Of a DNA stretch of 64,000 nucleotides, positions 1-32,179 are shown piece by piece. Position 1 is the first letter of the stretch, and the number at the start of each line of letters is the position of its first letter. The DNA comes from Tremella fuciformis (Eukaryota > Basidiomycota > Tremellomycetes > Tremellales > Tremellaceae), in contig CP136496.1 of the NCBI GenBank assembly GCA_032768795.1, forward strand, positions 2,267,148-2,331,147, written 5' to 3'. A program made the translations under genes and the position numbers. The notes under the pieces were generated by a model that did no database searches, was not told where the DNA came from, and saw only the letters and a program-made list of their open reading frames with translations.

Positions 1-67
1 CATACTCCCTGCGAGGCAACCTCGACTTCCCAGCTCGACGCGGACTATCCTACGTCCGGTCTTGACA
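1..67 (+). repeat. 3' end of left LTR of element 1
   Basis: These 67 bases match 7107-7173 exactly and end in CTTGACA, the LTR terminus. The rest of this LTR lies outside the window. Confidence 0.9.
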
Positions 68-69
68 TT

Positions 70-84
70 AGATACATTCGACTA
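70..84 (+). other. Primer-binding site with self-complementarity to the LTR (self-priming type)
   Basis: Two bases after the LTR, AGATACATTCGACTA is the exact reverse complement of 7052-7066 inside the LTR. A TATA-like ATATAGTA lies about 30 bp before 7052 (around 7021). If transcription starts near 7052, the 5' end of the RNA could fold back onto this site, as in the Tf1/sushi retrotransposons. No tRNA-like TGG start is present. Confidence 0.65.
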
Positions 85-115
85 TACTTGCACTGAGTAT
101 TGCAAGTCGAGGAAC

Positions 116-1390
116 ATGAGTGCTTCCACTCGCCAACTACGGTCGCATGTCGACCCGGACTCGGAGGACCTCGACACTCCTACGGAGGTTGAGGAACTCC
201 GACGTCAGATACTCGAGCTTCGCCAAGCCAAGGAGCAGAGCGACTCGGCCCTAGCGGCCGCCCGTCTCGCATTGGCCGAACGGGCCACCCCGGCAACCAC
301 TCATCACACGGGAGCCGCGCAAGGTATACCCCTGGAAGAGATCACGGACACGGATCTCGACCACGACCACTCGCCGCTCGAGTCCGCTCAGAGGATTTCG
401 AACGCGACGAGATCCTTCAAGGTGAACCCCCCAGATGAATATCACGGTGACCGCGATAAGCTACCGCAATACATTACCCAGGTACGAATGTACCTTAGCA
501 TGCAAGGCGGTGGCCTGGACTCGCGGAGGCAAGTCATTTGGGCGGCATCCTACCTACGGGGAAATGCCCTTCGTTGGTGGGAACCGTACTTCAACAGGCC
601 GAAAATCGAACAACCCCTTTTTTGCTCCGACTTGGACCATTTCATTTCCGAGTTACAGGACATGTTCGGCGACCCGGATAGACACCGAATTGCGGTGCAG
701 CGACTCAAGAAACTGTCGCAAACCCGCACGGTCTCAGAATACTATGCACGATTCCTGGCGATCTCAGCCGATGTGGAGTATGAGGACCGTAGCCTACGAG
801 ACATGTTCGAGTCGGGTCTGCGACCCGAGATCCGCCTGGCCATAGCGAATCGCGAGCACGAGCCCAGATCCCTAAAAGAGCTGGCGGACGTAGCGATTCG
901 TCTCAATGTACAGCAGGACAGTGTCCGCAACAACTTGCTGCAGCGCGAGCCGGAGCGAGCTACCTCGAAAAGGTTCGGCGAGGCGCCGGCGACAACTCAC
1001 TCTCGCGACCGCGCCGACAGACCTTCGAGGGACTACGTTCGATCCCCGAATCCGCCCTCTCGACCCCCGACCAACCAGAGATATCGGAAGGACGACGGGC
1101 ACTCGAGGGGTAGGATCTCGCCCAGCGAAAGACAGCGACGGATGGACAAAAACCTGTGTCTATACTGTGAGAGCCCGGATCACATTGTAGCCAACTGCCC
1201 CACGGCCCCGAAAACGCGAGCTCCTCGAAACAGCCCCGCATCGGGGGCGAACGCAGTCCGCCTCAATGGTATTAGACACGAATCACCGAATGCGAACGCC
1301 AACCTCGATCATACGAAATTCGACAAAGACGATTGGGAAAACAAGTTGGCGTACCCCAGCCCCGCGGCGGCGAGGTACGCCTCAGCGTGA
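116..1390 (+). CDS. Gag polyprotein of element 1
   Basis: A 424-aa Gag starting at the ATG at 116; the frame is open upstream but without an earlier ATG after the LTR. A coiled-coil-like N-terminal stretch (L/E/R-rich, residues ~20-65) precedes a retrotransposon Gag core with the W-A-x-x-Y-L-R-G-N-A-x-x-W pattern around residues 145-160. A CCHC zinc knuckle follows (CLYCESPDHIVANC, spacing C-x2-C-x4-H-x4-C), near residue 350. It would form the capsid-like particle and bind element RNA. It overlaps pol by 58 nt; pol is in the -1 frame. Confidence 0.92.
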   Translation: MSASTRQLRSHVDPDSEDLDTPTEVEELRRQILELRQAKEQSDSALAAARLALAERATPATTHHTGAAQGIPLEEITDTDLDHDHSPLESAQRISNATRSFKVNPPDEYHGDRDKLPQYITQVRMYLSMQGGGLDSRRQVIWAASYLRGNALRWWEPYFNRPKIEQPLFCSDLDHFISELQDMFGDPDRHRIAVQRLKKLSQTRTVSEYYARFLAISADVEYEDRSLRDMFESGLRPEIRLAIANREHEPRSLKELADVAIRLNVQQDSVRNNLLQREPERATSKRFGEAPATTHSRDRADRPSRDYVRSPNPPSRPPTNQRYRKDDGHSRGRISPSERQRRMDKNLCLYCESPDHIVANCPTAPKTRAPRNSPASGANAVRLNGIRHESPNANANLDHTKFDKDDWENKLAYPSPAAARYASA

Positions 1391-4300
1391 CCGCCACCTT
1401 CGCCGCACTCCCAATCTCGACGCCAGCTATTCCTGATACCCCAGACCTTTTCCATATACCTGTCGCGATCGCAAACAAACAATCACTAGTCTCCCGAGCG
1501 CTGCTCGACACCGGGGCCTCCCGGAACTTTATAGAGAAAACCTACGCCATCGAGTCGAAACTCGAATTGCGCCCTTCTAGAATCAAACAGACCCTACGAT
1601 TAGCGGATGGCTCCCGCAGCGCTATCGAACAAGAGGTTACCCTCACCCTCTTGCTAGGGGAAGGGTTCCAGCCTTACACAGCTACATTTCTGGTCGCCAG
1701 ACTAGATGTGGGCCCCATCATCCTTGGGGCGCCATTCTTCAAAGAAGTCAAGCCAACGCTCGACTGGGATAACCTGGCCATTCAACCTCCTCCCTCGAGA
1801 TCACACCAGGGCAAGTCGGGAAAACTAAAAGCAATCTCCCTCATCTCGGCCGAGGCATTCGAACAGATTACGGACGAACCCAAGGGGGCGATCTACCTAC
1901 GAGCCATCTCCGTGGACCCACCTCGGATGGAGGAAGTGGTACCTACGGAATACCACGAGTTCCTGGATGTCTTCTCGGAGTCGGAGGCCACCAAGCTACC
2001 TCCTCATAGGCCTTTCAACCACCGCATCCCGCTACTCGACGGCGCTGAGCCGACATTCGGCCCGATCTACTCGCTGTCCGTGACCGAACAGGAGGCCCTC
2101 CGAGACTACTTGGATACGAACCTCAAGAAAGGCTTTATCGTACCTTCGGAGTCGCCAGCGGCCTCGCCAATTTTATTCGTAAAGAAGAAAGACGGATCCT
2201 TACGCCTCTGCGTGGACTACCGCAAGTTGAATAACATAACCGTCAAGAACCGTTATCCCCTACCGTTGATCGGAGATCTACTAGACCAACTCCGTGCGGC
2301 CACTATCTACTCAAAAATAGACCTACGTGGCGCGTACAACCTCCTCCGGATCGCCGCCGGGGAAGAATGGAAAACCGCATTCAGAACTCGGTTCGGGCTG
2401 TTCGAGTACCGAGTGATGCCATTCGGCCTCACGAATGCCCCAGCCTCATTCCAACACTTGATGAACCACATATTCCGCGATGTGCTGGACATTTTCGTCA
2501 TAGTCTATCTGGACGACATACTTATCTTCTCGAAGTCACGGAGCGAGCACGAGAGGCACGTCAAAGAAGTCCTACAACAACTGCGGAAATTCGAACTGTT
2601 CGCAAAACACGACAAGTGCCAGTTCCATACCGACTCCGTAGAGTTCCTGGGCTACATCATCGACCCGAAGGGCGTATCGATGGACCCGAACAAGGTGCGA
2701 GCGGTGTCGGCATGGCCAGCACCTCGGAACGTCAAGGAAGTCCAATCCTTCCTGGGTTTTGCAAACTTCTATCGAAGGTTCATAGCAGGGTTCGCCAAGG
2801 TAGCTAAGCCACTGCACGAACTCACTCGGAAGTCGACCCCGTTCTCCTGGTCGGAACCGCACCAGGCGGCGTTCGACCTGCTCAAGACGAAAATGACGAC
2901 CGGACCCGTCCTGAAACACTATGACCCAGACCAGGAATGCGTGGTAGAGACCGACGCGTCCGATTTCGCGATCGGGGCAGTCATATCCCAGAAAGACGGG
3001 GAGAATGGGCTGCGCCCAGTCGCATATTCGAGTCGAGTCATGTCGCGAGCCGAGTTGAACTACCCGATACACGACAAGGAATTCTTGGCAATCGTGTACG
3101 CTTTCAAGGAATGGCGACACTACCTGGAAGGTGCCCGACACCGGACACAAGTGCTCACCGACCACCGCAGCCTGGAAACCTTCTTGTCAACCAAGCAACT
3201 GACCCGACGACAGGCACGATGGGCAGAGATGATGGCAGACTTCAACTTCGAGATCTCCTATCGTTCGGGGAAGCAAAGTACTAAACCGGACGCCCTCAGT
3301 CGAAGACCGGATTACCTCCCCACCGACTCGACAGCCACGAGCCTGTCTCAGGAACTCAACGGACACAATTTCCGACCGCTCCTGTCCTCAGAACAGTTGC
3401 TACTCTCCCTACAAGTACAGCTGCTGGGCAAGACGCCGTCCGACTTGTACGAAGGGGACGACGAGCTAGGATCATTGATCGCGGACGGAAAAGTAACCCA
3501 AGACACGCAAGGATACTATAGACACTCGAAAGCATACTACTGTCCCTCGAAGTCTCGGACAGAGGTCATCGAGGCACATCACGATATAGTCTCGGCCGGT
3601 CACCCTGGACCCCGAAAGACTTATCAGGCAATTAGGCAACACTGGTGGTGGCCGAACATCAAGACGGATGTAGAGAAATCTGCGGCGGAGTGCGAGAAGT
3701 GCCAAAGAAACAAGCCCTCGAGACAGAAACCGTACGGCCTCCTTCGACCGCTCGAACCGCCACTACGACCATGGGCAGACCTGTCTGTGGACTTCATAGT
3801 CGACCTGCCCACCTCGAATACCTACGACTCCATCATGGTTGTCGTGGATCGCTTCTCGAAGATGGCAGTATTCGCGCCCTGTCACAAGTCGATCACCGCT
3901 AAAGGAATGTCCGAAATCTTCACGGATAGAGTATATACTCGTTTCGGCATACCCGACAGCATAGTGTCGGATCGTGGGAGTCTGTTCGTATCCAAATTCT
4001 GGAAAGCCTTCTGCCAAGGCCTAGGAACCAACCTGCGCTACTCGACAGCATACCACCCACAAACAGACGGACAAACCGAGAGAACGAACCAGTGGCTGGA
4101 ACAGTACCTACGCAACTATGTGAACCTCGAACAAGACAATTGGGTGCCCCTACTGCCGCACGCGGAGTTCTGCTACAATAGCACGCACCACGCCTCGCTG
4201 GGTATGAGCCCCCTGGAGGCCTACACCGGGAGAGCATATCGTACGACCCTAGTCGATCCGCCAGGAGACCTGTCCGACCTGCAAGTTCCAGCAGCCGCCG

Positions 4301-4929
4301 ACCGGGTTCAGCAGCTAGAACAGCTGCACCATCGAATACGAGGGAACTTGCTCAGAGCCCAAGAAGGGTGGAAGAAGCAATATGATAAGCGTCGACGTAC
4401 ACCGGACTTCCAAGTAGGGGACAAAGTCTGGCTAAATGGCAAGAACTTGCGCACGCTCCGTCCGACTAGGAAATTCGACCACCGTCACGTAGGACCGTAC
4501 TCCATACTAGAAAGGATAAACGAGAACGCATATAAACTGGACCTGCCTCCGGAATTGGTCGCCAATCGAGTTCACCCAGTCTTCAACGTAGAGCTCTTGT
4601 CGCACGTTCGTGGGGCTCGAGTCGAAGCGCAACCCGCGCTGGTCGCTCCGCCACCAGCCCCACACACTAGCGAGGAGGAGCTTTACGAAGTCGAAGGGGT
4701 ACTGAAACGAGCTCGACGATCCCGGGGTAAGGCAAGACAACTCGAGGACCAGGTCCTTGTGAAATGGAAGGGGTACCAACAACCGACCTGGCAACCAACA
4801 GACTCTCTAAAGAGAGACCCGCGGTTCGAGTCGTGGATGAAGGGCATCGAGGACAGCCAAGTCGAACCCCTAGTATCCGATGCGAAACGCATAAGGCGCG
4901 CCCCGCGCTGGAGAACGGAGTCGGCATGA
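1333..4929 (+). CDS. Pol polyprotein of element 1 (protease, RT, RNase H, integrase)
   Basis: About 1,198 codons, open from 1333 without its own good ATG, so probably made by -1 frameshifting from gag within 1333-1390. Domains in order: aspartic protease (LLDTGA, ~59), reverse transcriptase (VYLDDI, ~392), RNase H (ETDASD, ~539), integrase with the HHCC zinc region (~747-790: HH...C-x2-C) and the catalytic D...DRG...E series (~819-915), and a C-terminal chromo-like segment (VLVKWKGY, ~1140). Ty3/gypsy order (integrase after RNase H) plus the chromo-like tail places it among the chromoviruses. No internal stop is seen. Confidence 0.93.
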   Translation: MGKQVGVPQPRGGEVRLSVTATFAALPISTPAIPDTPDLFHIPVAIANKQSLVSRALLDTGASRNFIEKTYAIESKLELRPSRIKQTLRLADGSRSAIEQEVTLTLLLGEGFQPYTATFLVARLDVGPIILGAPFFKEVKPTLDWDNLAIQPPPSRSHQGKSGKLKAISLISAEAFEQITDEPKGAIYLRAISVDPPRMEEVVPTEYHEFLDVFSESEATKLPPHRPFNHRIPLLDGAEPTFGPIYSLSVTEQEALRDYLDTNLKKGFIVPSESPAASPILFVKKKDGSLRLCVDYRKLNNITVKNRYPLPLIGDLLDQLRAATIYSKIDLRGAYNLLRIAAGEEWKTAFRTRFGLFEYRVMPFGLTNAPASFQHLMNHIFRDVLDIFVIVYLDDILIFSKSRSEHERHVKEVLQQLRKFELFAKHDKCQFHTDSVEFLGYIIDPKGVSMDPNKVRAVSAWPAPRNVKEVQSFLGFANFYRRFIAGFAKVAKPLHELTRKSTPFSWSEPHQAAFDLLKTKMTTGPVLKHYDPDQECVVETDASDFAIGAVISQKDGENGLRPVAYSSRVMSRAELNYPIHDKEFLAIVYAFKEWRHYLEGARHRTQVLTDHRSLETFLSTKQLTRRQARWAEMMADFNFEISYRSGKQSTKPDALSRRPDYLPTDSTATSLSQELNGHNFRPLLSSEQLLLSLQVQLLGKTPSDLYEGDDELGSLIADGKVTQDTQGYYRHSKAYYCPSKSRTEVIEAHHDIVSAGHPGPRKTYQAIRQHWWWPNIKTDVEKSAAECEKCQRNKPSRQKPYGLLRPLEPPLRPWADLSVDFIVDLPTSNTYDSIMVVVDRFSKMAVFAPCHKSITAKGMSEIFTDRVYTRFGIPDSIVSDRGSLFVSKFWKAFCQGLGTNLRYSTAYHPQTDGQTERTNQWLEQYLRNYVNLEQDNWVPLLPHAEFCYNSTHHASLGMSPLEAYTGRAYRTTLVDPPGDLSDLQVPAAADRVQQLEQLHHRIRGNLLRAQEGWKKQYDKRRRTPDFQVGDKVWLNGKNLRTLRPTRKFDHRHVGPYSILERINENAYKLDLPPELVANRVHPVFNVELLSHVRGARVEAQPALVAPPPAPHTSEEELYEVEGVLKRARRSRGKARQLEDQVLVKWKGYQQPTWQPTDSLKRDPRFESWMKGIEDSQVEPLVSDAKRIRRAPRWRTESA

Positions 4930-4961
4930 GGTCTCTGCATAAAATACAACCTGGACTACAA

Positions 4962-6641
4962 TCACTTGCGGCGGCCGCGCTTCGTCTTGAGGGCGCCAAG
5001 CGCGGCGCGCTGTGGCGCCTTCGCCTCACTGGCAGTCTTCTCCTTGGTCTGCAGTCGGGTCGTGCGGTGCGGGATGTCGGATTCCGACTCGAGGGACTCA
5101 GCTCGGGCAGACAGAAGTCGAGTAACCGAGTGGTGCCGGTCGGGAGACGAGTGAATGGAGGGCGCGGGCGAGTCCTCCAATAGCCGCTTCAAACCACCCC
5201 CACCGACCACCGAGGGACCCGCAACCCCCTCCTCAGCGCCTTCGGCCATCGCGTCGTCCAAAGAGCTCCAGTCGAGTGTAGACACCAACGGAGGATCACC
5301 CGAGTCTAGCAGAGCGACTTGAGACTCGCCGCGGAATGCAGTCCGGTTCAAATGCTGCAAGTCAGATCTCGACAAGACCAAGACGAAATCCGACTACACT
5401 TACCTGATATTTGGAGTAATTGATTCTATAGATCTCCAAGATAGCATTACGGGCCAGACCGGGTTTCGCATCTGCAAGTAGAGCTGCCGCCTGGCGGTGA
5501 ATTCCTGCGATAACACCCTTACGACGAACGACCTCGTCGGCAGGGAGGACGAGTTGAGCTCGGGGCCCAAGAGCGGTGTTGGGCAAAAGGGTGCAGTGTT
5601 TCGACTTGAGCATACACCCAAGACACCTATACGTCAGCGAAAATCGAGTACGGTAAGTCGAAAACATACTTCTGCGCCACATACCGCCTACCATCGACCT
5701 CCACAACCGGGCAGACGCAGAGTAGACCCGAGTAGCCCGACATGGGAGGGCGATTATGGGACACACAGGCTGCACAACGCTCCGCCCCCATCAGGACGCC
5801 CCACGAGCCGGAGTCAAGCGCTTCGAGGATGTTCGACCCGGTATCCGCGGTGTCGCCAGTACGAGTCGAAATGTACGACTCGATCCACGAGTAGAAGGAC
5901 TCGATCCTCGAGTCGTCGTGTCCAACGACCTCCGGTTCTTTCAGCGGGTACCGATACACGCGATTCAGACGCTTGACCACCAACTCTTCGCCTTCAACCC
6001 TCGGGAACACCCCACTAGGAGTTCGACCTGCCTTGGTCGGCGAAGGAGTAGGGATCGGCTGACCCGGGCTCGAGTCGGGGGCCGAGCCGAACAAGTCGCT
6101 CAGACCGACCTCAGTAGCCGAAGACACGACTTTGGCAGGCGGAGATGCGGCCTTAGGGAAGCCCAAAGGGCGATGAGCATGACCCTTTTGACTAGCCGGT
6201 GTCTCGGGAATGCTGCTCGAGCCGAAGGGTGGTTGACGAGAGATAGGAGAGGGATCCAAGATGTGTTTCTTGGGTGAGAGACGACCGATGGGAGCAAGGG
6301 GAGCCTTGAAAGGCGATTGAATAGGCGGGAATACCGACTCAGCACGAGCAGGAGTCGACTTTACGGGAGAGGAACCCTAACAGCTTAACTCGAAGTCCGT
6401 CTACTGGCATTCGACTCACGGATTTATCCCTTTCTCGACGTAAAGCCGCCTTCCCCGCAGCAACCAGCTTGTCGACCTCAAACTTGAAAATGGCATTTTC
6501 GGGCTGCGCTTCGAGGTTCTCTCGAGCGGCCTGGAGTTGAATTCGATAGTCGTCCGCCGAGGCCGTACCGAGGTACGCCTCATCGTAGGCATCTTGTATG
6601 CCCTGCTCAACATTGAATCCGGCCAGCTCGTCGTCGACCAT
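4962..6641 (-). CDS. Antisense four-exon gene inside element 1, unknown function (Cys-rich)
   Basis: Between pol and the right LTR a coherent gene reads on the opposite strand. Exons are 6641-6420, 6376-5670, 5626-5404 and 5354-4962; introns are 43, 43 and 49 nt. Donors are GTGAGT, GTATGT and GTAAGT; acceptors end in TAG, TAG and CAG; the last two introns have CTGAC branch-like motifs. The sum is 1,545 nt, giving 514 aa. Residues ~1-75 are acidic/helical, ~75-200 are Ser/Pro-rich, and a central region holds paired cysteines (ERCAAC, CVCP, then KCLGC...HC formed exactly across intron 2). The C-terminus is basic (KTKRGRRK), possibly a nuclear signal. I do not recognise the family. Splicing removes only the antisense introns; on the element's own RNA this region is the 3' non-coding part. 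Confidence 0.72.
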
Positions 6642-6860
6642 GATGAGAACAGTACGAAAGACGACTCAAGGAAGACGAAGTCCGGACACAACAACCAGAA
6701 CAACAACTTGCATGAAAGGGTAAACAACGGCGTCTCTCGGGCTTACGGGCGTGGCATCTACCTCAACGAACCGAACACACAGTGCCAAAGGACGCAACAT
6801 CGAATAAAGGATGTCAACAACCGAGGATGTCGGGTCGACATCAAAGAAGAGGGGGGCGAC

Positions 6861-7173
6861 TGTCAGGACTGTGGCACTGAGACTGTGGCGGAATGAGACA
6901 AGGCCAAGTGCCACACGGCCTGACTCAGCCAACCGCCCACTTGCCTCATCCGGGTGAAGTAGCCGAACTGCTAAATGCGGCACTCGGACTGTCTAGTATA
7001 GTTGAACGGTTTTCGAATACATATAGTAGACATTCGAGTAGAGAAGATCTCTAGTCGAATGTATCTCTTGTACTCTCAGTCTACTTCTAGTAACCCTACT
7101 CGATTGCATACTCCCTGCGAGGCAACCTCGACTTCCCAGCTCGACGCGGACTATCCTACGTCCGGTCTTGACA
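6861..7173 (+). repeat. Right LTR of element 1 (313 bp)
   Basis: Runs from TGTCAGGACT to ...GTCTTGACA, with short terminal inverted repeats TGTCA/TGACA, and is preceded by a purine-rich tract. It contains a TATA-like ATATAGTA near 7021 and the 15-nt self-priming segment at 7052-7066. Confidence 0.9.
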
Positions 7174-7174
7174 T

Positions 7175-7285
7175 GAGCTTGGGCAACGACGGAGCGGGAG
7201 CTCTGCCTTTCTGTGGTCCTGCCATAGCAGGAGCGACGAGCGCGGCGAGTAGGGCGGCAGTAGACGCGAGAGGGAAGTAGACCAT
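7175..7285 (-). pseudogene. 5' end of a secreted-protein gene disrupted by element 1
   Basis: Reading leftward from an ATG at 7285, the first 37 codons give a classic signal peptide: a hydrophobic core (TAALLAALVAPA) followed by AMA-like small residues, then a basic/proline-rich mature start. The frame runs straight into the LTR at 7173. The rest of the gene must lie left of the element, outside the window. The protein family cannot be told from 37 residues. Confidence 0.6.
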
Positions 7286-8243: not shown

Positions 8244-8363
8244 GACGCGCCTATCTAGCCTGGCGATCCACGCTGAACAAACGGGCGCCTGTTTGTGGCG
8301 CGGCCCAGCAGATCAGTTGCTCAATCACCGTCAGCGACACCACTCTGACCCTCTACTTCTAGT

Positions 8364-8660
8364 CACCTCTTAGGTCACGACCTCGATCAATACTACACGG
8401 CATCCGGCTCCTACGTCCAAGTATGCGCGTCTCGCAGAGCGGGACAGATGAGCCCCAGCCGACATCATCTGCTTCTTTGGCCGGTGGCGACCGTCCGCGA
8501 CGCTATTTTGATTCTCTGCGTCGTCGATCACCTCTTAGGTCACGACTTCAATCATTACTGCACAGCATCCGGCTCCTACGTCCAAGTATGCATGTCTCGC
8601 AGAGCGGGACAGACAAGCCCCAGCCGTCATCATCTGCTCCTTTGGCCGGTGGCGACGACA
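8364..8660 (+). repeat. 165-bp direct tandem duplication
   Basis: The stretch beginning CACCTCTTAGGTCACGAC at 8364 recurs at 8529 with few changes. The second copy falls within the N-terminal part of the ORF at 8423 and duplicates its start codon (second in-frame ATG at 8588). Confidence 0.75.
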
Positions 8661-9819: not shown

Positions 9820-11637
9820 CTAGACTCTCTCGACCGTCTCCATCTCAATCTTGTCCGCCCCGATCTCACCATTGCGTACGACACCGTGCTCCGCCGCCCG
9901 AACCTGCAGCTCGCCTTGAACATCCGAAGGATGCCATTTTGGGGACTGGATCGCGGAGACACGGTGTTCGAACAACAGATTGATCTCCTCGGGCGTGCGC
10001 CCCTTGCACTCGGGGATGAAGAAGTAGCCCCAGGCGGCGCCAAGCATGCAAAGGGATCCGAAGACTGCATTTCAGCGGGTTCGTACCCCATCGTCGGCTC
10101 GACTCACTGAACCCCACCTTACCGCCCAGGTATGAGGGAGCGTTGATGAGATACGGAATGCTGAATGTGACACCGCAATTGCTGGCAAAGTTGACCCAGG
10201 TGCCTATGCGCTGCGTCTTGTCCCGAAGCTTCTGCTCAGATACCTCGGCGACCAATACCCAATTGCTCGGCGCCCAACCGATCGAGTATGACACCGCATA
10301 AACGACGACGCAGCCCACGATCCCCGCGTCGGCCTTGTGGACGCCAGACCCCTTCACTGTGCCCAGTCCGCCGATGGTGAGCATCATGATGCCCTGCATG
10401 AGGATGCCGCCGATCATGATGGGCCTTCTCCCCACCACGTCGAGCAGATACATGGCGACCAGTGTGGCCACGAGCTGACAAGAGCTTGTGATCAACGTGA
10501 AATTGAAAGCGGGGAACGTGTTGAGCGACTTGACGAATACTGTGCCGTATTGACTGTTCAGAGACTGCCCTCCCCACTGGAGGAAGAAGCATGTTCCGAT
10601 CGTGATCATTGTTCGTCGGAGGGATCGGCCTTTGAACAGCTGGCTGTACGTCGATGTCTCCATCTGGTCGTATGCCTGCAGTCCGAGCTTGATGAAGTCG
10701 AGCTCGGCTTCGATGGACTCGATGTCATTCTTGACGCGAAGACGTGTCAGAGCACGGCGTGCCTTCTCCTCGTGCCCGTGGGCAAGGAGCCATCTTGGAG
10801 ATTCGGGAACGAACCACACTGCCGAAGCGACCACAGTCGGTGCTAGGTAGAACAAGGCCAGAGGAATTCGCCACGAGTTGTTCGACTTGATTGTAGACGT
10901 GAAATGACAGACGATACTCATCAAGAGCACTCCGACCGACTGGATGAGGTGAGACTTGATGACACTGGAATCATGTAGAGTGTGACGTACGATAGACATC
11001 TGGTACGAGGCCACTGCGAACCCACGGATGGGAACGGGCATGATCTCGGACTGGAAAACGGTGATGACGGATAGCTCCATCCCCTACGAGGTGTAAGCCC
11101 TGTTCGACAGAAATGAGAGAGCCGACTTGCGGCGTAGATATAGTTCAAGCATCGCCCGGCCAGGATCTGGCCGTAGGTCTTGGAGGTGATGCACACGGTG
11201 GCGGACACCAGGGCGAACAGAGACATCGAAAACACGGTCCATCGGCGGCCGTATCTCTCGGATATCATCGAGCCTATCAGACTCCCAAGGGCGAAGGTGA
11301 GGAACGGGAACCCTTTCCCTCAGTATACGTACAGCGCTCTCCAAGAGCGGACTGACCGTTCAGAAATGAAAGTCGGGTCGAGCCCAAGGAGCATGATCCT
11401 GCTTTGGTACATGTCCCACCAAACTGCTTGGCAAAGTGGTTCATCGCCTGGACTTGACTGAACCCGGACTGGTCAAAGCCTGCCTCTTAGTACCTCATCG
11501 ACGAACAGGCACGGGGAGAGACGCCTTCCCGTAGAGGACTCACCAAAGTTGGCCGACGAAAAGGTCAACAGACCAGAACATAGGAACAGCTGGAGATTGT
11601 AATTCTCGTAGATCCTCTTGGGCGAGAAGGAGGACAT
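9820..11637 (-). CDS. MFS sugar transporter (hexose/quinate-type)
   Basis: Six exons: 11637-11544, 11479-11357, 11312-11131, 11083-10991, 10939-10108 and 10064-9820, giving 1,569 nt or 522 aa. Introns are 64, 44, 47, 51 and 43 nt; the third is a GC-AG intron (GCAAGT donor). Sugar-porter signatures are present: FGFDQSGF in helix 1, ERYGRRW after helix 2, PESPRWL at the central loop, a D-x-x-GRRP-like loop, and PECKGRTPEEI near the end. It should sit in the plasma membrane and import a sugar or related polyol/acid by proton symport. It is divergent from the Gfo/Idh/MocA oxidoreductase gene across 479 bp, which suggests shared control. The 51-nt intron is a multiple of three without stops, so its retention would keep the frame. 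Confidence 0.85.
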
Positions 11638-12116
11638 GGTGACGGCGACTATTTGGCTCCCCGGTATATGGTATCAGAGGGACGATGGTCTTCGTGATCT
11701 GGAGGGCGCTGGTGGGACCCCACGGGCCGTTTATATGTGGTTCGATGCTGTGGAGGGGTGCCACGACCCAATGATCTGGAATTGACTTCCAGAGAGGGGA
11801 TCATTACATTCCCAAACGTCCCTCGCTCCCTTCGGACTCGATGATGCCTGTGTTGAGAGTCATGTTCGAGAGGGCGAACGTGATCTGGAAATGGGGTTTT
11901 CGGGCAATGAGAAGGCGAAAGTTCGGTCGGGGTCACGCATCGGTCTGCTCGCTCCGATCGGACAGGCTCGGTCTCGGAGCGAGGTCAGTGTTGGCTTCCG
12001 TAAAGTGATGTGTAACAATGTCGGCGCCGCCACTCGGTGTAGATGGTCATGCTGGAACGACTTGGCTGCCAGAAGGTATCGGTAGGACGGAAAGCTCCAA
12101 CGCAAAGCGTCTCACG
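11638..12116. promoter_or_regulatory. Divergent promoter between transporter and oxidoreductase
   Basis: 479 bp separate the two start codons. No long ORF on either strand has splice-compatible partners. I could not pick a confident zinc-cluster binding site by eye. Confidence 0.4.
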
Positions 12117-13792
12117 ATGACTAGGCCAGCGAGCGCACCAATCTCGACCCCTTTCAATGTCTTATACATAGGTGCCGGAGTGATCAACTTTGGGTCCCCA
12201 GCTCAGCCGTGGAACCATGTGAGCATAAAGGCGACCATCGTTTGGCGAGTGGAGCTGATAGGAGTAGAGCCTGCGGATTGAGCGGTGAGCACATCACTGA
12301 GCCCTCCGTGGTCTTACATCAGAAAGCTCGGCAACCGATTATGCGTCGTAGGGATTGTCGAAATAAGGCCCGAGGTAGCTCAGGCAGTCATCGAGAAGAA
12401 GAGAAACGAAAAGGTCGACGGCTATGCCAGTACACTTGTCTTTGAGTCTATCCAACAGGCTGGAGAGGCACTTCGGAAAGACCCAGCCCGTGTGCCTCAG
12501 TGAGCTACGCGGGCATCTGAGAGCACTCATGCTGACGCCCGCACAGCCTGGCCGTAATCGGGACTCACCCGTCCACACGGGGATCGCTGGTATCGGGTAG
12601 AGATGCCGAAGTTCAACTCCTCAAGTTCTTCCCGCAGATCGCCATGCACATCGAAAAACCACTGTCTAGCGGAAGCGTACAAGAGGTAGAAGAGCTAGCC
12701 GCGGTCTTGCGGCAGAGGGGGACGGTGACCAGTGTCGGATACATGCTTCGTTACCTCAAAGGTGAGACCCTGCGCTGCGAAGAGAAGTAGCGGAACTGAC
12801 GTGGTCAGGTGTGCAAGAAATGAAGAGGGTGATCGCGGACAATGACTTGACGGTCATGGCTACCATCGCCCGATTCCTGATGGCTTAGTACGTGCCTGTG
12901 GTAAGCAGAGCCGGAGATAACATTCAGTCAGTTTGCGGGGCAGACACCGGCACGCAAGGGGTTCTTCGACAAGACGGTACTACTGGGACGTGAGTTGCAA
13001 CGAACGACAGTATCAACAGGCACAACGACTGAAGATCAGCCATTGTGGAACAAGCCACCCACATCTGTAAGCCCGGGCCTTGTCATGATGTGTAATTGAG
13101 ACCAAGGCGACCTGTCCCGCTACTTCGCCCCGCCGATCGTTGCAAAGTCTTATCAGGTCCACACCATCTGCCACGCCGAGGAAGCGGGTCATCTCTCCCA
13201 AATTGCACACGACGAAAGCACGATACTCCCCGAGAACAGGATTCCCCGCATGACGACCGCCATTTGGAAGTACGAGAATGGCGCGTGTGGCACGCTCATC
13301 CATGGACTGACTCTACACGGTGCGAGGACTCCCCTGATCGCCCCCTTTCTGACGGATCAGAAGGCGAGATCTCGGTCGAGCTGCTTGTCCTTGCGGACGG
13401 CTGGAGTCTGCGCTTGGTCAATCCGTACAATGTTCATCCCAGGCTGTTTGTGCGGCAACCAGGTGGCAGGATAGAGAGTGACTCATCCATGACATTTACC
13501 AGGTAACACTGTCACTGACTTTGCAGAGGAAATCGAGCTGGGCGATGACGACTGTTATTTCAGTCAATTCTCAGCCTTGATAGACGTGGTAGATGGCCTC
13601 GCCCCTCGCACGGTCATTCAGTCCAGCTTTGAGGATGCCCTGGAGTCATACAAAATGGTGCGTCTGGCCCACACCGTCCTTGGGTCTCAGCTGACTCTGG
13701 CGGACCTGGGATATCCGGCTGAAGGGAGAAGAAAACAGGGTATGAGCATCGGGTTGCTAGTCGTCTCTGACCCAGTGCAGCTGTACGCGTAG
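12117..13792 (+). CDS. Gfo/Idh/MocA-family NAD(P)-dependent oxidoreductase
   Basis: Ten exons: 12117-12218, 12268-12284, 12323-12499, 12547-12761, 12809-12887, 12928-12989, 13040-13066, 13107-13319, 13361-13477 and 13527-13792; 1,275 nt, 424 aa. Exons 2 and 7 are microexons of 17 and 27 nt, and joining them rebuilds family motifs (PWNHSLRIERKLG; GPIVEQATHICDLSRYF). The N-terminal Rossmann fold has a GAGVINFG dinucleotide loop, then an HIEKPL motif in the usual EKP position, and a C-terminal Gfo/Idh beta-sheet domain. Such enzymes oxidise sugars, polyols or amino sugars in the cytosol. The substrate is unknown; a divergent sugar transporter and a downstream sulfatase suggest a sugar derivative. 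An ATG at 12018 in the same frame is possible, but 12117 sits directly before the Rossmann domain. Confidence 0.85.
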
Positions 13793-13991
13793 ATGCATGA
13801 GCGTCCTCGCTACCTTCGAAGTGCTCCTTTCTCCTGTTTCTGCTTGCTCCTGAACGGTCAACACCGTGGTTAGGCGGGGGAGCGAGCGGTCTCATCGCTT
13901 AAATGTGTAGTAGGAGCGAGCGAGCCGGGACGTCGGTCCCTTCGGGTCGGCTGAGTGATTCCCAGTCATGCCCGCTTCTCTTCGGACCTAG

Positions 13992-16309
<2,318 letters not shown>

Positions 16310-16380
16310 CCATTACATACTCTACAAAGTTGCACTTGCTATTGTGGTACATCACGATCGAGACCTTCAAAGTCGGGGAG

Positions 16381-19009
16381 TCAAGACAATGTCGTCCAAT
16401 TGAATGCGGTTACGGTCTCGCTGTTCTGACTGTTCACTGGCCTTTCCCGAATGTCGTCCTCACCGAAGGTCAGACCACCACTGTCTCCGAAGATCGAGCC
16501 AAAGGGATCGGGCTGACTCAGACCGAATGAATGGAGATCGAAGGGGAGCCAGTGGGCAGACGTATCGGACGGGTGGGGCACCTCATGGTTGAGAACAAAA
16601 GACTCGAGAGTGGCGGCTTCTCCGTGGCGTGGGTTGGCGCTCATTGTGAAGTCGGTGGTCGATGAGCTATGATTGTTCAGAGCCATGGTGAGCAGGTCCA
16701 TTGGGTTGGGCACAGAGAGTTGTTGGTCGGTATTCTGCAAGGCGGAGAAGCTAGCCCACTGGTCGTTGGCCGTACTGTGCGACTGACGTAAGCAGAGAGT
16801 GCTGCTCAAGAGCTGACCCACCAGCACGCTTCCCTCCACTGTTTCGTTGATTACCCCAGTGGCTGTCTTGGAACTGTACGACTGTGAGGGATGTGCGTTG
16901 GGCTGGGTGTCATCATCCTCCCATAACATCCGGACTGCCACCTACGGTCGAGTTTTGCGAACGCTGACTGGGGGAGCGTTCCTCATCCAGCTGAGGATGG
17001 TGCAAGTACCGACGCTGAAAGGGCATTTTCTGCAAGATGGGGCCAGCAGGCGGTGTGGTGGTCCCCACAGAGTGACTGACCCTGAGGCGTCAGTCCAGCC
17101 GATGATCCCCAGAAGATACATACAGCAGGTCTCCGCTCCACTCAGTGTCCACGACAACGCCGTGCTTCCAGCAGAATCGGATGACGTCCCGTATCTGCGT
17201 GTCAGCTTGTCTTGCTCCGGTAGGTAGTCAAGGGGGGGACTGACAATGCGCCTTGCGTAGAAGAAGCATCTCGACGACCTACCAGCCACATTGATCATCG
17301 CCTCCAGACCCGTCACCAGTCTCCGTCGTTCCTGGTCATTCAGACGCTTCTGAAAGACCGCGAGATACGCCAGCTGATCTCGGGAAGCGTCGTATGCGAA
17401 CATTGAGAAATGCCAATTGGGAGACTGATACTCGGGAAAACATTGATCGAGCAACCGGAAACAGTCGACGATATTGCAGATGTGACGATATGCAGCCGCC
17501 TGGCTGCCAGAGAGCCAGTCTGCCGGAGCGCCAGATAGATCCTCTATACTAAGTGAAGCAATGTCTCTCCGCACGCGATAAGGAATGCTGATTCGGTAAA
17601 GGGATGCTGATAGTCGTTCGTACCATATGTGAATAGATACCAGGGCGTCGAGCTCGTGTACAGACTTTCTGCTGTACATGTTGTTGATGTTCAAGGCAAG
17701 CTCGGATGGCAGAGACGACCGCCATTGTGTCAACGCGGATCGTAGCCGGTAGTACTCTGAGTTGTTCTCCCACGGCTTCACCGGGAACCGATCGAGATGG
17801 CGAGTGTAACTACCGATCAGACAACATATCCAGGCGAGGAGAGATTGCCGTTTAGCGAATCCCAACTCACTACAAGATGTCCCTCCTTAACAGCATCAGC
17901 CGGACATATCGTGCGGAAAGACCGTCGGATGGTGTGTGTAACACTGCGGGTGTCGATGTCTCGGATTCAGACAAAACTTGTGACATGCGCCGGGTCTTGA
18001 CCGCTATGGACATGCTGTAGTTATACTCGGGAGACGGTAGGTCAAGTTTGGCGACGACAGCTTTCGGCAGACCGTATTCACTGAAACCTCCGGATGCGAA
18101 GGCGTCTAGGCAGAACGCTGACCACATGATCCGTCTTCGGGCCTCTCGTTCGAGCCAATCCACAGATGCCGACTCTCCTTCGGTCGGAAGGCCTGCCGGC
18201 AAGGACTCTTCGTTGAAGCCCATGGCCATGGCCATCCGAGTGGCCATGCCGACCAACATCCATCCCGAACCAATCCTGCCGGAACTGTACTCGTGATTGA
18301 CGAGTATGACAAGAGCGGCGAGCTTGGAGATAGAGAAACGGTCCAAAGTCCGCATGATACTAAGTTTGACTTCCTCGGCCCATTGGGCGGGCCGGGCACC
18401 GCCATCCGGGTGCAAGGGATCGGCGCTCGAGAGGAAACGGGCGGTAGCAGCGCATATGATCCGTAGTAGAATAGGCGATGCGATCCCTTCTCTGATCTCC
18501 CGGTCTAGTCTGCCCCGATGAAGGAAGCTTGGGCCAATGTGATGCAGATGGGAGAAATACGCGTCGATATACACATTGAGGCGCTGTCGGGAAGAAAGCG
18601 GATCGTCGTTCTCGGTAAGGATTGCGGAAGTCGGGGGCGAGATCTGGTCAGCGGAATGAGGGTACAGAGGCGGTGGGATGGACCTGCTCTCCTTCATGCT
18701 GGCATCGTCTGTAGTAGCAGTTACTGTGATCCCCTGCTGGTCATCGAGGTGACCAGAAAGAACGGACTGAACGACAGGATCAGAGTCTTCCGCGGACGAG
18801 TCGACTCGGCGTGACGTATGCTCGTCATACTCGCACTCAATGCCTTGAGCTCGGCACGGATCACAGATAGGGCGCTGCAAAGGACAGGTGCTATTTGTTT
18901 GTCGGCATGCTCGACAAGCACTGTCATCCGTTCGGCCAACAGGAGCCAATGGACCTGTCAATAGGGTCGTAGAAGTGGAGTCGGGCGCAACGGCGTGATC
19001 ATCCTCCAT
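16381..19009 (-). CDS. Zn2Cys6 transcription factor 1
   Basis: Exons: 19009-17871, 17809-17245, 17194-17124, 17081-16946 and 16902-16381; 2,433 nt, 810 aa. A further stop-free 72-nt candidate intron at 16783-16854 would give 786 aa. The binuclear zinc cluster has Cys at ~32, 35, 42, 49, 52 and 59, and is poor in the basic residues usually found between them. A fungal-specific middle homology domain follows (YFSHLHHIGPSFLHRGRL; ARRRIMWSAF near residues 180-330), then a Ser/Gln/Asn-rich acidic tail. It sits between the two sulfatase genes and is the natural candidate regulator of this island. It is convergent with sulfatase 1 and runs in the same direction as the isomerase gene upstream. Confidence 0.85.
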
Positions 19010-26043: not shown

Positions 26044-26577
26044 TGTCATGAATCAACACTTAGGAGAAATAGTATTAGTATCAGGATCCAAGAAATAGAG
26101 TAAAGTCCGGACCTTAAGGGTAACAGTCGTAGAAGCTGCACAGAAGTTGCTCAGCACCTGCACAGCATCTGCTTAGAACCTGCGTAGCACTTACTTAGAA
26201 CTTACTTAGCACTTGCTTAGAACCTGCTCAGCACCTGCGTAGCACCTGCTCAGCACCATTCGTAGAATCTGCCCAGCGCTCTGGGTGGCAAATTCATAGT
26301 TCTTAGCAATCTGGTGAAAGGGATATAAGCAGGCCTGTTTGCCGCTGAAGACCTTTTCCCCAGTTATGGATCAAAAGTCATTCCCTTGTCTCTCTTCCTA
26401 GTCCCAGTCCCCCAGTCCTCCAGACCACGTCCAGTGCAACCCTGCGCCATCATTCTGTTACACAGAGAGGCAAGACAGCAGACAAGCCAGAGACTAGTCA
26501 TTCCAGTTCCAGTCCAGTTTGCCACTCACAGTAGTGCGCTTCCAGTCAAGTCCTGCCTAGCTTTAGCTCCATCCGTC
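26044..26577 (+). repeat. Left LTR of element 2, first part
   Basis: Matches 37858-38391. The remaining 39 bp of this LTR are at 32709-32747, beyond the nested element. Contains short tandem repeats of CTTAGAACCTGC / CTCAGCACCTGC type at about 26140-26260. Confidence 0.92.
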
Positions 26578-27101
26578 TGTCACGCTGGGGTCGGATGTAC
26601 GAGGAGTGACCTTGAGGGTTGAGGGGGTAGTCTCTGACTTGTCTGAGCGAGAGTGACTGAGGGTACTGAGGTTGTTGGGTTGGAACCAACTGTGTGACTT
26701 TGTACAAGGAAGTACAAGATACATCGCTGAAGAAGAAAAGCAATGTCAAACGAACTACAGGGTTTATATAGTCTACCTAGAGAAAATTACCTATATCACT
26801 GATATAGATTCGCCCGAAATCTCTATCTATTCTCATCATATCTCTCATATTTGCACGCTCTGCTCTGATGCCTTGTGATCTCCTATTCTCCTATATTCTC
26901 TTCTATTCTCATGCTCTAACAATGAGAATATAGGATATTCTCTATGAGACCGGTCTAGTTCTCTATGAGGATATGTTAGTTCTCTATGAGATATACTAGT
27001 TCTCAGTGAGAGTATGCTAGTTCTCAGTGAGAATATGCTAGTTCTCTGCGAGAATAGGCTAGTTCTCGTTGAGAATATAGCTTTTATTGCGAGTCATGAC
27101 A
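26578..27101 (-). repeat. 3' LTR of element 3
   Basis: 524 bp, same as 32180-32703. It holds a run of about seven imperfect ~22-26 bp repeats centred on TTCTC...GAGAA at about 26925-27075, each locally palindromic. Confidence 0.93.
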
Positions 27102-27113
27102 GGAGCTCCCCCT

Positions 27114-30100
27114 CTAAGGGCGAAGTCCTCTGAGCCTGGATGATCTGCGTTCAGATCTTTTGGTGTTTGTTGAAGTCTGGCGGTGTGCTCTGGATGGAGG
27201 GAAATGGTGTTGGGGATCCTTGAGGTGTTGTCGATGGAATTTGTTGTAGGCCGTGGTGTCATGGACGTTTTCCCATGGTTCCCATGAGTTGTGGGCGCTT
27301 GAATAGTCTTTCCAGCTGACAAGGTAGTCATAACCGTTGTCTGGGCTGATTCGAGAGTCAAGGATTCTGTCAATGATGTATTCTTCTTGTCCATTGACTT
27401 CAATGCGTGGAGGTGGATCCTGTGGTTGCTGAGGATGTCCGTGGCGCATTGGTTCCAGAAGGTTGACGTGGAAGACTGGGTGAATGTTCATGGATGGTGG
27501 GAGGTCCAACTTAAATGCGAGAGGAGAGGATGTGGCCTCAATGATCTTGAACGGTCCAAGCATCCTTTGGTCGAGCTTGAGTGAGGGTCGAAGTGTTTGT
27601 ATGTTCCTTCGATTCAGGAAGACCTGATCTCCTACTTTGAAGAGTGGTTGATCCTTGGCCTGGATTTCTTTGATTTTTCGATTATAGAACTTGGTGTAAT
27701 GCTCTTGGGCGGCCTTGATATTATCGGAGAGCTGTTGGTGCAAGGAGTGTAACTTTTCGAGGTGTGTCTGTGCTGCAGGAACCAATGATGTTGGAGGTGT
27801 TGTGGGATCATTTGGGTGGTACCCATAGTTGGCTTCAAAAGGAGTGAACTTGGTTGACGAGTGGACCGAGTTGTTGTAGCTGTATTCTGCCAGGTCCAAA
27901 AGGGATGACCAGTTGGCTTGGTCATAGTCACAAAATGACCGAAGGTAGTGTTCCAGAACTTGATTGACTCGTTCTGTTTGTCCATCGGATTGCGGATGAA
28001 AGGCCGTAGAGAAGTTTGGTGTAATGCCTAGTCCTTTGACAAATGACTTCCAGAATTGCGAGTTGAAGATTGATCCGCGGTCGGAAACAATGTTGTGGGG
28101 AAGTCCATGAAGTCTCCAAATGTTTTGTCGGAACATTGTTGCTAAGTTGGGCGCATCGAAGCCATCTTCTTTGAATGGGACAAAGTGGGCTTGTTTGGTG
28201 AAGCGGTCAACAAAGACCATAATTGAGTCGTAACCTCTCGATGACGGGAGCTTGACAATAGCATCCATAGAGATTGAGTGCCAAGGTTTGCTGGGTACTG
28301 GGAGCGGCTGAAGAGGTCCGTAGGGTTTGTGTCGAGGTATTTTGTTCCGTGCGCATGTGTGACATCCGTCCACATAGGTGTTGGTGAATTGTCGCATGCC
28401 AGGAAAGTAGTAGTGTCGAGCTAGAAGTTGATATGTCTTTTGTTGTCCAAAGTGTCCTGCGGTAGGGGTGTTATGACACTGGTGAAGTAGGTCGATTTTG
28501 AGATCCTGATTGTCTGGGACATAGACCTTTTGTTGGTATCGGATAATGTTGTCGTCAAGGCTGAAGTCTTTGATTTTTTCTTGGAGTGTGCTGGGAGCAG
28601 GTCGATCTGGATGACGCAGATAAGGCAAAAGCTCTTTAAGGATGGGGTCCTCAGGCTGAAGTTGCTCTATCTTAGTCATCAAGTCTGATTTTACTGGGAT
28701 GTTGGGAGTGTCGGTAGGTGTGAGGGCTCCAATGATGAATTGCCCGGGTTTGAGGAGTGTATGTGGAGGTGCGTCTGCGGCTCTACTCCCCCCTTGAAGG
28801 TCTGACCTCCTGGTCAGGGCATCTGGTTTGCCCATCTTTTCTCCAGGTCGGTAGTGTATCTTGAAATTGAAGTTGGCTAAGAGTTCTGCCCAACGAGCTT
28901 GTCGTCTGTTGAGCACCTTGGAGGTGGTGAAATATTCGAGGTTCTTGTGATCGGTATAGACTGTGATTTCTTTTGCTCCTTCTAGGCATGGCCGCCAGTG
29001 TTTAAATGCTTCTACAATAGCAAGCATTTCTTTGTCGTAGATCTCGTAGTTGAGTTCGGCCGGTTGGAGTTTTCGAGAGTAGTGGGCAATTGGGTGAAGT
29101 TGCTTCCCATCTATGTCGGGATGTGAGAGGACACCTGCAATAGCAAAGTCTGAGGCGTCTGTCTCCATGATGATTGGCTTTCCAGGTTGAAAGTGTTGAA
29201 GTATTGGGGCACTGGTGAAAGAGTGCTTGAGTGTATCAAAGGCGGATTGTTGTTTGTCTCCCCACACAAAGTCGACTCCCTTGCGCAGGAGGTGTGTGAG
29301 TGGTGATGTGACCTTGGAGTATGCGCTTATGAACCGTCGATAGAAATTGGCAAAGCCAAGGAAGACTTGAACATCATGTACCGATTGTGGTGGTGGCCAG
29401 TTGGTGACAGCTTCAACTTTCTGAGGGTCCATTCTGATTCCTTTGTCTGAGACAAGGTAACCGAGGAAATCAACCTCATGTTTGAAGAAGGTGCACTTTT
29501 CTGCCTTTGCCCAAAGATGGTGTTCTTGCAGTCGTTCCAAGACTTGTTTGACATGGGTAATGTGATCGTCCTTTGATTTGCTGAAGATGAGGATGTCGTC
29601 CAGGTAGACAATGACAAAGACATCCAAAAAGTCTCGAAGGACATCATTGATGAGATTCTGAAATGATGCGGGCGCATTTGTTAGCCCAAAAGGCATCACA
29701 AGGTATTCGTAGTGTCCATAGCGGGTGCGAAATGCTGTTTTCCATTCATCGCCTTTGGCAATGCGGACAAGGTTGTATGCAGCACGTAAGTCGATCTTGC
29801 TGAACCATGAGGCTCCTTGAAGGCGATCGAGTGATTCTTGAATTAACGGGAGTGGATATCGGTTTTTCCGAGTAATGCTATTGAGTTGCCGGTAGTCGAC
29901 ACATAATCTGAGGGATCCGTCTGGTTTCTTGACAAAAAGGATGGGTGAACCAGCGGGGCTTGAACTTGGTCGGATAAATCCTTTCTTGAGGTTCTCCTTG
30001 AGGTATTCGTCCAAAGCTTTGAGCTCGACCTCTGACAGACTGTAAATCGGGCCAAACTTGGGTTGGGCATTGCCCTCAAGTGTTATGGCGTGATCATAGG

Positions 30101-31094: not shown

Positions 31095-32041
31095 TCAAAG
31101 GCTTTGTGACCAGGTTTGCCACAGTACATGCAAAGATTTTCCTTGATGCGTCGATCACGTTCGGCTTGGGTGAGTGGTCCAAAGGGTGGTTGGGCTTGAG
31201 TTGCATCGATTTCCATGGGTGTTGGAGTGAATGTTGAGACTGTGGTGGCATGAGGTGTGAAGGCGGTGTTGGGCCTAGTAGCTGGGGTGATACGGTTGCC
31301 GTTGGTGACTGCAGACATGGGGCGCTGAGCCACTCCTTGAAAGCGCTGAGACAGCATTTGCGAACGTATGTTGCTGCTTGTACGTCGTCGCTGGTAAAGC
31401 AAATCGTCATATTCAATTGCTGCTGTGACCATGGCTTCGTAATCCCTGAACTTGCTTGGAGCAAGAAGTCGATCCTTGACATCATCTTTGAGTCCATCAA
31501 AGAAGTTCTGTTTCTTGGTCTCATCATTCCAGTGCACATAGGCGGCATGGTGCTGGAACTCTGTCGCATAGAGGCTTGCTGAACCTGTTTGGCGAAGGTT
31601 TCGGAGCTTGAAGCGTGATGTCTCGGCAAGGTTGGCGTCTCCAAAGTATTTCTTGAACTCGATCTGAAAGTCGTCCCATATATGAAGCCAGGTGGGCTGG
31701 TCCTCTGCCTCCATACCAAGGTAAGGCAGGACCCATCGATAAGCTTCGTCCTTGAGAAGGTTGGTGGCAAAAGCGATTCGAGTGAGATCCATAGAGTAGG
31801 TTCGAGGTTGAACTGCAAAGACCATATTGCACTTGGCCAGGAATTCCAAAGTCTGATCCTTACGACCACTGAAGGGCGGTGGATGAGAGATCTTTGGCTC
31901 TTTGACATGCTCAGGCCTGGTGGTAGCAGAGTTGACTTGAAGGGCATTGATTTGAGCTTGGAGCTGAAGGATCATGTCATGTTGAGCTTGAAGCGCCTGC
32001 TCAGCATTGATCTGAGTGTTGGGTTCTGAGGTGGCGTCCAT
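31001..32041 (-). CDS. Gag polyprotein of element 3
   Basis: 346 aa from the ATG at 32041 (the frame is open further upstream to 32155, but that part lies in the leader). Retrotransposon Gag core with YATEFQ near the middle and a CCHC knuckle (CMYCGKPGHKAFEC) near the C-terminus. It ends just after the slippery site. Confidence 0.92.
   Translation of the reverse strand: MDATSEPNTQINAEQALQAQHDMILQLQAQINALQVNSATTRPEHVKEPKISHPPPFSGRKDQTLEFLAKCNMVFAVQPRTYSMDLTRIAFATNLLKDEAYRWVLPYLGMEAEDQPTWLHIWDDFQIEFKKYFGDANLAETSRFKLRNLRQTGSASLYATEFQHHAAYVHWNDETKKQNFFDGLKDDVKDRLLAPSKFRDYEAMVTAAIEYDDLLYQRRRTSSNIRSQMLSQRFQGVAQRPMSAVTNGNRITPATRPNTAFTPHATTVSTFTPTPMEIDATQAQPPFGPLTQAERDRRIKENLCMYCGKPGHKAFECRLSQRKRQQPAQVNATTADNKSKNPKPQA
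31020..31026 (-). promoter_or_regulatory. -1 frameshift slippery site of element 3
   Basis: On the minus strand the gag frame reads TCA-AAA-AAC, a canonical A_AAA_AAC heptamer. A few bases downstream AGCCCCAG can pair with CTGGGGCT across a ~20-nt loop, giving a stem of 8 bp. Confidence 0.75.
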
Positions 32042-32177: not shown

Positions 32178-32179
32178 AC

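Follow-up and report, generated by a model that had tools for sequence, protein, structure and literature searches.

The left end of the window, which is the whole stretch of 64,000 nt of Tremella fuciformis DNA that was analysed and which ends where contig C7 ends, is occupied by a recently active fungal Ty3/chromovirus-like retrotransposon. Its third gene is carried on the opposite strand and meets pol tail to tail. The features of this element are as follows:

1–68, plus strand: 3′ end of the 5′ LTR, identical to 7107–7174; the window begins inside this LTR
116–1390, plus strand: gag, with a Retrotrans_gag domain (PF03732, E 4.5e-12 on 119–1387) and a CCHC-like knuckle close to its end; ATG at 116
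1333–4929, plus strand: pol, with Pfam matches to protease-like, RT, RNase H, integrase, Tf2-type SH3 and weak chromodomain regions; 1333 is the mechanical start of the open reading frame (TTG)
4962–5354, minus strand: exon 4 of the antisense gene, with the stop codon; basic C-terminus KTKRGRRK
5355–5403, minus strand: intron 3, 49 nt, GTAAGT..CTGAC..CAG; splice sites kept in 15/15 aligned copies
5404–5626, minus strand: exon 3, opening with the last base of the K codon, followed by CLGCMLKSKHC
5593–5776, minus strand: cysteine cluster, residues 275–321, C-x2-C-x15-C-x1-C-x14-C-x2-C-x6-C, interrupted by intron 2
5627–5669, minus strand: intron 2, 43 nt, GTATGT..CTGAC..TAG; GT..AG in 15/15 aligned copies
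5670–6376, minus strand: exon 2
6377–6419, minus strand: intron 1, 43 nt, GTGAGT..TAG; 50 nt (7-nt indel) in copies L013, L014 and L016
6420–6641, minus strand: exon 1, with the start codon
6642–6860, minus strand: upstream region, 219 nt, reaching the 3′ LTR (from the sequence)
6861–7174, plus strand: 3′ LTR, 314 nt, TGTCAG...GACAT
7175–7178, plus strand: GAGC, also found immediately 5′ of the 5′ LTR; probable 4-nt target duplication

The element displays the features of Ty3/Metaviridae, namely LTRs, gag, and a pol with Pfam domains in the order PR-RT-RH-INT. The matches in pol were to RVT_1, RT_RNaseH, Integrase_H2C2, rve, SH3_Tf2-1 and Chromo, the last of them below the cut-off: the chromodomain (PF00385, pol residues 1118–1168) reached 19.1 bits (E 0.0012), under the Pfam cut-off of 25.1, and the protease match was at, or slightly under, the Pfam cut-offs. 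The first 246 nt of the 5′ LTR precede the window (start at C7:2266902), and the two LTRs, of 314 nt each, show zero differences; because the LTRs are without differences and GAGC flanks both ends, the insertion is very recent. The stop codons of the antisense gene (4962) and of pol (4929) are separated by 32 nt. The tetranucleotide TCGA is approximately 2.5 times commoner in positions 1–7172 than elsewhere in the window (102 versus 41 per equal length).

The rest of the window contains two more Ty3-type elements that are apparently nested, one at 26577–32703 (minus) inside the other at 26044–38391 (plus). The repeats of each are identical, over 525 nt in the former (26577–27101 and 32179–32703) and 534 nt in the latter (26044–26577 and 37858–38391), which suggests that both elements are young; outside them lies a third pair of repeats (25374 and 38431), and neither element has room for an antisense gene. 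A Helitron-like element occupies 55188–59593 (minus), whose PIF1 helicase and Helitron_like_N domains fall in different frames, and a 129-nt direct repeat, 91% identical and with a start-to-start distance of 165 nt, lies at 8363–8656, ca. 1.2 kb past the 3′ LTR. Likely host genes at 9866–19009 and 40071–41063 include those for a sugar transporter, a sulfatase, a Zn2Cys6 factor (Fungal_trans/Zn_clus) and a hydantoinase/oxoprolinase.

A first-pass annotation, made from the sequence of the window, had proposed a spliced four-exon gene on the strand opposite to the element, between pol and the 3′ LTR. We recovered the same gene, with the same coordinates, on the minus strand (6641–4962). Joining its four exons removes introns of 43, 43 and 49 nt, rebuilds the KCLGC junction and closes the frame exactly, giving 1,545 nt and an uninterrupted product of 514 aa, all as originally proposed. 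A crude splice-aware search, which used our own list of donors (including these three) and only the peptide CLGCMLK as an anchor, led to the same four exons. The promoter of the antisense gene is likely located in the 219-nt upstream region, whose plus-strand end is a purine-rich tract, AAAGAAGAGGGGGGCGAC.

A DNA search of the 28.1-Mb genome (11 contigs), whose copy lists are lower bounds, retrieved at least 17 copies of the element, 15 of them near full length and two in pieces (L015/L019 being one copy and L017/L018 the other). Copies lacking the reading frame or carrying stops in it, which the first-pass annotation had named as one observation that would speak against the gene, are not the rule: all 17 copies listed carry the antisense gene and the spliced frame is intact in 14, though three are broken. 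Thirteen copies (L001–L013) have exactly 515 codons, including the stop, and L016 has a 3-nt in-frame deletion and ends in TAA. The broken copies are L014, which is frameshifted and has 20 extra exon nucleotides; L015, with a 206-nt deletion; and L017/L018, with an insert of ca. 436 nt and a 5-nt duplication. With 14 of the 17 listed copies intact, we rejected the reading of the gene as a pseudogene.

Fifteen copies were aligned, leaving out L015 and L017–L019, and all of them preserve GT..AG at the three introns. This conservation, which had been put forward as a check on the gene model, together with a third-position excess that rotates in phase across the exons (see below), places the splice pattern beyond chance. 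The donor is GTGAGT or GTACGT in intron 1, and GTACGT or GTATGA in some copies in intron 2. The 7-nt indel of intron 1, which is not a multiple of three, occurs in three copies, of which L013 and L016 stay in frame. A search for RT sequences, in which 102 of 248 candidates were scored, listed 17 places at 95–100% identity; in 14 of these the antisense gene is at the expected distance, and the other three are 24.6–27.5 kb from one. The antisense genes of L002, L013 and L014 lie 25.8, 27.5 and 24.6 kb, respectively, from the RT match of the same family. We read these distances as nested insertions, because homology to the window element ends inside pol and, for L013 and L014, other RT matches lie in between; for L002 there was no intervening RT match among the matches listed. 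No copy without the antisense gene appeared among the listed matches of the DNA and RT searches.

Nucleotide differences between the window copy and L016 (ca. 86% identical) concentrate in third codon positions in exons 1 to 4 (15/24, 64/96, 22/30 and 34/60 substitutions; binomial p against 1/3 of 0.003, 3e-11, 9e-6 and 2e-4, respectively), and the genomic phase of the peak is 2, 0, 1 and 2 in the successive exons, matching the three-intron model. Exons 1–3 are likewise third-position peaked in the comparison with L013; exon 4 lacks such a peak both with L013 (9, 2, and 4 substitutions at positions 1, 2, and 3) and with L014 (7, 0, and 3), and these exon 4 counts are small (15 substitutions for L013, 10 for L014) yet contrary to the pattern. 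The value below 1 anticipated for dN/dS in the antisense frame was obtained, at about 0.15. Using the Nei-Gojobori method on the 15 pairs from six chosen copies (out of the 15 aligned), dN/dS ranged from 0.09 to 0.37, the maximum corresponding to L013 versus L014, a broken copy; the informative values are those for the window copy, 0.142 versus L013 (dS 0.18) and 0.152 versus L016 (dS 0.46). Changes among the 12 young copies L001–L012 number 29 at 394 synonymous sites and 17 at 1148 replacement sites. For the 3′ part of pol, dN/dS was 0.157 versus L013 (256 codons) and 0.078 versus L016 (487 codons); the value for L014 (0.715, with 4 stops) is unreliable because of the indels in this copy. These comparisons among genomic copies show that the antisense gene and its three spliceosomal introns are real, and that the protein sequence is under purifying selection across copies. 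Since it is under selection, and several related element families have cysteine-rich frames at the same position (see below), the gene appears to be a long-standing helper of these elements, not a chance frame.

Divergence in the non-coding parts of the gene is below that of third codon positions. Differences from L016 affect 14/135 intron positions versus 135/513 third codon positions (p 5e-5), as well as 30/219 positions of the upstream region. Outside of the splice signals the introns still differ at 8/63 positions, so that these signals explain part of the low divergence only. We rejected CpG hypermutability as its cause, with non-CpG differences at 11/110 intron positions versus 88/362 third positions. 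The low divergence of the introns does not fit the plain view of introns evolving neutrally; a conserved function at the RNA level, or patchy gene conversion, are possible explanations for that of introns and upstream region.

The description of the product as a cysteine-rich protein holds locally but not overall, since its 514 aa include seven cysteines, all within residues 275–321. Other features are a proline- and serine-rich stretch and a basic end. Pfam returned no family for the whole protein at E values up to 1, including no match to bZIP or TRP28, and residues 255–363 had no match to PF00172 (Zn2Cys6) at E values up to 10. Likewise, there were no matches to PDB chains in a sequence search, to a set of 5.8 billion proteins (whole protein and residues 200–400), to viral contigs (whole protein) or to prokaryote genomes (residues 255–363); the window as a whole had no match in Rfam. 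A search of the genome with the protein gave 72 matches, all of them in copies of the element or in two diverged places of contig C10. The first of these (C10:634937–635505) is a relative with 39–53% identity, its alignment being interrupted near the site of intron 3, and is tail to tail with a diverged pol remnant; the second (C10:743744) is a 42-residue fragment with a stop, and there is no pol match in the 10 kb examined at this place.

Antisense cysteine-rich frames also follow pol in six further Ty3 lineages of the same genome. We examined 11 post-pol regions, from L053–L060, WA (27114–31094, minus), WB (33760–37845, plus) and the window element; the regions of L054 and L055 start some 650–700 nt past the expected end of pol. 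An intact six-cysteine motif (C-x2-C..C..C-x2-C-x6-C) in a single antisense frame was found in L053, L054, L055, L056 and L058, that is, in 5/11 regions, versus 0/11 in the sense strand and 0/2200 in shuffled antisense sequences, a count that is only descriptive because the motif was chosen after the first hits. The window element is outside those five, because splicing is needed to complete its cysteine cluster. The lineage with the most members among them, L057, contains two half-motifs and was excluded from the intact motifs because they are in different frames with no convincing intron to join them. In this family the antisense frame is opposite to and downstream of the RT match in 19/19 places, with an RT distance in L057 itself (C4:967718) and in the copy at C8:492159 that is unlike that of the other 17. 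The crude splice finder gave no complete gene model for L056 and L057, and the models for L053, L054, L055 and L058 are unproven; the motif of L054 may be incomplete in the RNA, because its trial model splices out the first two cysteines. On other contigs, the product of L053 matches three open frames, one of 1763 aa (E 2e-5), one of 486 aa (E 4e-4) and one of 2023 aa (E 0.018).

The motif was absent from the post-pol regions of WA, WB, L059 and L060. In WA and WB the pol stop is 12 nt from the LTR repeat, and there is therefore no room for an antisense gene. In a tree of 13 RT sequences, rooted on an element whose antisense-gene status was not examined, WA, WB, L059 and an element from C8 (in which the antisense gene was not looked for) grouped with a support of 100, versus 42–92 for nodes outside of this group, and the carriers of antisense frames were not a single clade. 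Because of this, the simplest reading of the tree, although not a firm one given the moderate support, is that the antisense frame was present in the ancestor and was lost in the WA/WB/L059/C8 group and in L060, which is more economical than many separate gains.

The same six cysteines occur in these three frames matched by L053, which are the copia-like loci L061, L062 and L063, where they are in the sense orientation and within one stop-free frame; we take the part that precedes the motif in these elements to be the C-terminal part of the copia RNase H. Another repeated family, comprising L064 (C2:1088300–1089900), L065 and 7 further places, contains the motif as CRRCRREGRRC..KCYTCTTGRC (E 0.01–0.06), with no match to gag or pol of the window element in the 1.5–1.6 kb examined. 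Eight modules could be aligned with the six cysteines invariant. Comparison of these eight members with Zn_clus (Pfam) gave matches for 3/8 at E 0.076 or worse, and with DUF3716 for one at E 0.0077, all below the cut-off. A PDB search with profile A5 of the motif gave ten matches at E up to 10, eight of which were Zn2Cys6 transcription factors, including AlcR, GAL4, PUT3, Pho7 and PPR1 (E 0.9–6.6), none of them significant. P0001, the sole database match of the six-cysteine profile A3, is 59% identical to the copia-like module; its AlphaFold2 model has a mean pLDDT of 54.9, with the cysteine part below 50. The six-cysteine motif weakly resembles the fungal Zn2Cys6 clusters (PF00172; GAL4, AlcR), which have six cysteines in C-x2-C-x6-C halves, as in the motif; in contrast, the motif is below the cut-off, the window protein is unmatched and its loops are longer.

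Once spliced, the cysteine cluster of the window protein, with spacing 2-15-1-14-2-6, fits the six-cysteine pattern, with longer distances than in the other members. The half-motif KCLGCMLKSKHCTL shares spacing and flanks with KCYSCAHDSKLCSL from L053 and KCHSCIRANKPCSL from L058. In a single hhalign comparison with A5, the window protein gave a weak match (probability 27.7, E 6e-4) over 21 columns of the second half only. Together, these data are suggestive, but do not prove, that the window protein belongs to the six-cysteine group.

The first-pass annotation considered a multi-intron, cysteine-rich antisense product to be new in a fungal chromovirus. As a kind, however, antisense genes in fungal Ty3 elements had already been published, according to papers that cite the original description: Boty-like elements of Botrytis cinerea carry an antisense gene named brtn (Zhao et al., 2011, Virology, via PMC7264820, PMC8365987 and PMC4227169), and a gene of the same type is reported from Sclerotinia in papers citing brtn. 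As described there, Boty is a fungal Ty3/gypsy element whose pol includes a chromodomain, and its additional antisense gene lies, as in the window element, between pol and the 3′ LTR. Our comparison with brtn is by description; for the window gene we report three introns, protein-level selection and presence in several lineages. Antisense genes with this location and orientation, retained by most copies, are also described from plants, in Grande (gene23, maize), RIRE2 (rice) and Retand (Silene) (PMC7264820; PMC11963269). According to the same two papers, the antisense ORF of Retand has a putative DNA-binding TRP28 domain, the gene of Grande produces a nuclear protein from its own promoter, and the roles of these plant genes are unknown. 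The window gene is an additional antisense ORF of the aORF-3R type, located between pol and the 3′ LTR, kept in most copies and conserved at the protein level; it differs from the plant ORFs in the lack of a TRP28 match and in its three introns, and the word "intron" is absent from the main text of both papers. A literature search covering titles and abstract openings, with subscription papers thinly represented, showed no six-cysteine or multi-intron antisense gene in fungal elements, which is weak evidence; likewise, the word "antisense" is absent from the main text of "LTR Retrotransposons in Fungi" (PMC3248453). Outside of retrotransposons, the HBZ gene of HTLV-1 and APH-2/3/4 are described as antisense genes near the 3′ LTR that produce spliced antisense RNA and regulate their element (PMC10186651). 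HBZ belongs to the bZIP proteins and is expressed from the 3′ LTR, whereas the window protein has no bZIP match, and the parallel implies no sequence kinship.

On balance, we lean towards this third gene of the element having its own or an LTR promoter, being spliced, and coding for a nuclear zinc-binding regulator that acts in trans. Transcription would begin at a promoter of the gene itself, within the 219 nt before the 3′ LTR, or in the LTR, and the transcript would be spliced by the host spliceosome. As the first-pass annotation suggested, and as is sound by general reasoning, its introns would persist through retrotransposition because they stand in reverse orientation in the genomic RNA and do not act there as splice signals. 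The proline/serine-rich stretch, the cysteine cluster, the basic end and the zinc-cluster likeness of the motif would fit a nuclear nucleic-acid-binding protein, and from the cluster and the basic tail we infer a zinc-binding, perhaps DNA-binding, product. By analogy with HBZ, this protein may act in trans on the transcription, chromatin state or integration of the element; the first-pass annotation had put forward regulation of the element, or the countering of host silencing, as possible roles. Antisense expression would be uncoupled from the sense promoter, and the protein could therefore be made while the element is quiet; there it might set the level of the element, as HBZ is described to do (PMC10186651).

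The main alternative, a rather unlikely one in our opinion, is that the protein is real but works in the retrotransposition particle or in integration (as a chaperone, in nuclear import or in target choice) and not in expression. Its constraint, not far from that of pol, is consistent with this, as is the presence of the motif in the RNase H frame of copia-like loci, in the sense orientation, where such a role is natural; a separate antisense transcript, however, is not made from the genomic RNA, and there would be no co-packaging by default. It is less probable that the antisense transcript itself limits the element by pairing with the genomic RNA, the protein being secondary. Regulation of other LTR elements by antisense RNAs is discussed in PMC7264820, and the introns and upstream region differ less than synonymous sites, but a dN/dS near 0.15 and the exact maintenance of the frame show that the protein matters, and both explanations can be true at once.

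As to the origin of the gene, the first-pass annotation contemplated a captured host gene. The three short introns do look host-like; nevertheless, a recent capture by this single element family is disfavoured, and we judge it very improbable, because the diverged relative is tail to tail with a diverged pol and several lineages carry antisense cysteine-rich frames. Moreover, the gene is present in all the copies listed, one of them at 86% identity, and its matches in the genome are confined to element copies and the two places in C10. An open frame with splice-like sites, both arising by chance, is refuted by the rotating codon-position signal, and is further opposed by the intact copies with kept splice sites and by the dN/dS values, which leaves it practically no probability. 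A more serious objection, which we consider possible but doubtful, is that the window gene has no kinship with the six-cysteine frames of the remaining lineages and would be an orphan with cysteines alike by convergence. Indeed, tblastn with the window protein gave E values of 0.30 or worse for six regions, and of 0.41 or worse or no match for four more, the profile match is weak, and the cysteine spacing is longer; against this, the frames coincide in strand and post-pol position, and the half-motifs from the window element, L053 and L058 are alike in spacing and flanks.

Returning to a regulatory third gene, we tentatively propose, as a reading more likely wrong than right, that a zinc-cluster accessory module has circulated among the LTR elements of this fungus, taking three or more forms: the multi-intron antisense gene of the window, the shorter antisense genes of other Ty3 elements, and a sense extension of the copia-like pol. 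This module might represent an ancient family of element-owned regulators, a fungal counterpart of HBZ, that would be ancestral to an entire chromovirus radiation and lost where the gap between pol and LTR shrank.

Antisense frames of LTR elements are easily doubted. Intron phase provides here unusually clean evidence, from DNA only, for the splicing and translation of an antisense gene from an LTR element. With 17 copies listed in one genome, and several related lineages, the gene now lends itself to tests at the RNA and protein levels. Should the six-cysteine motif of Ty3 and copia-like elements prove to be a single family, the question would be what single task both superfamilies need.
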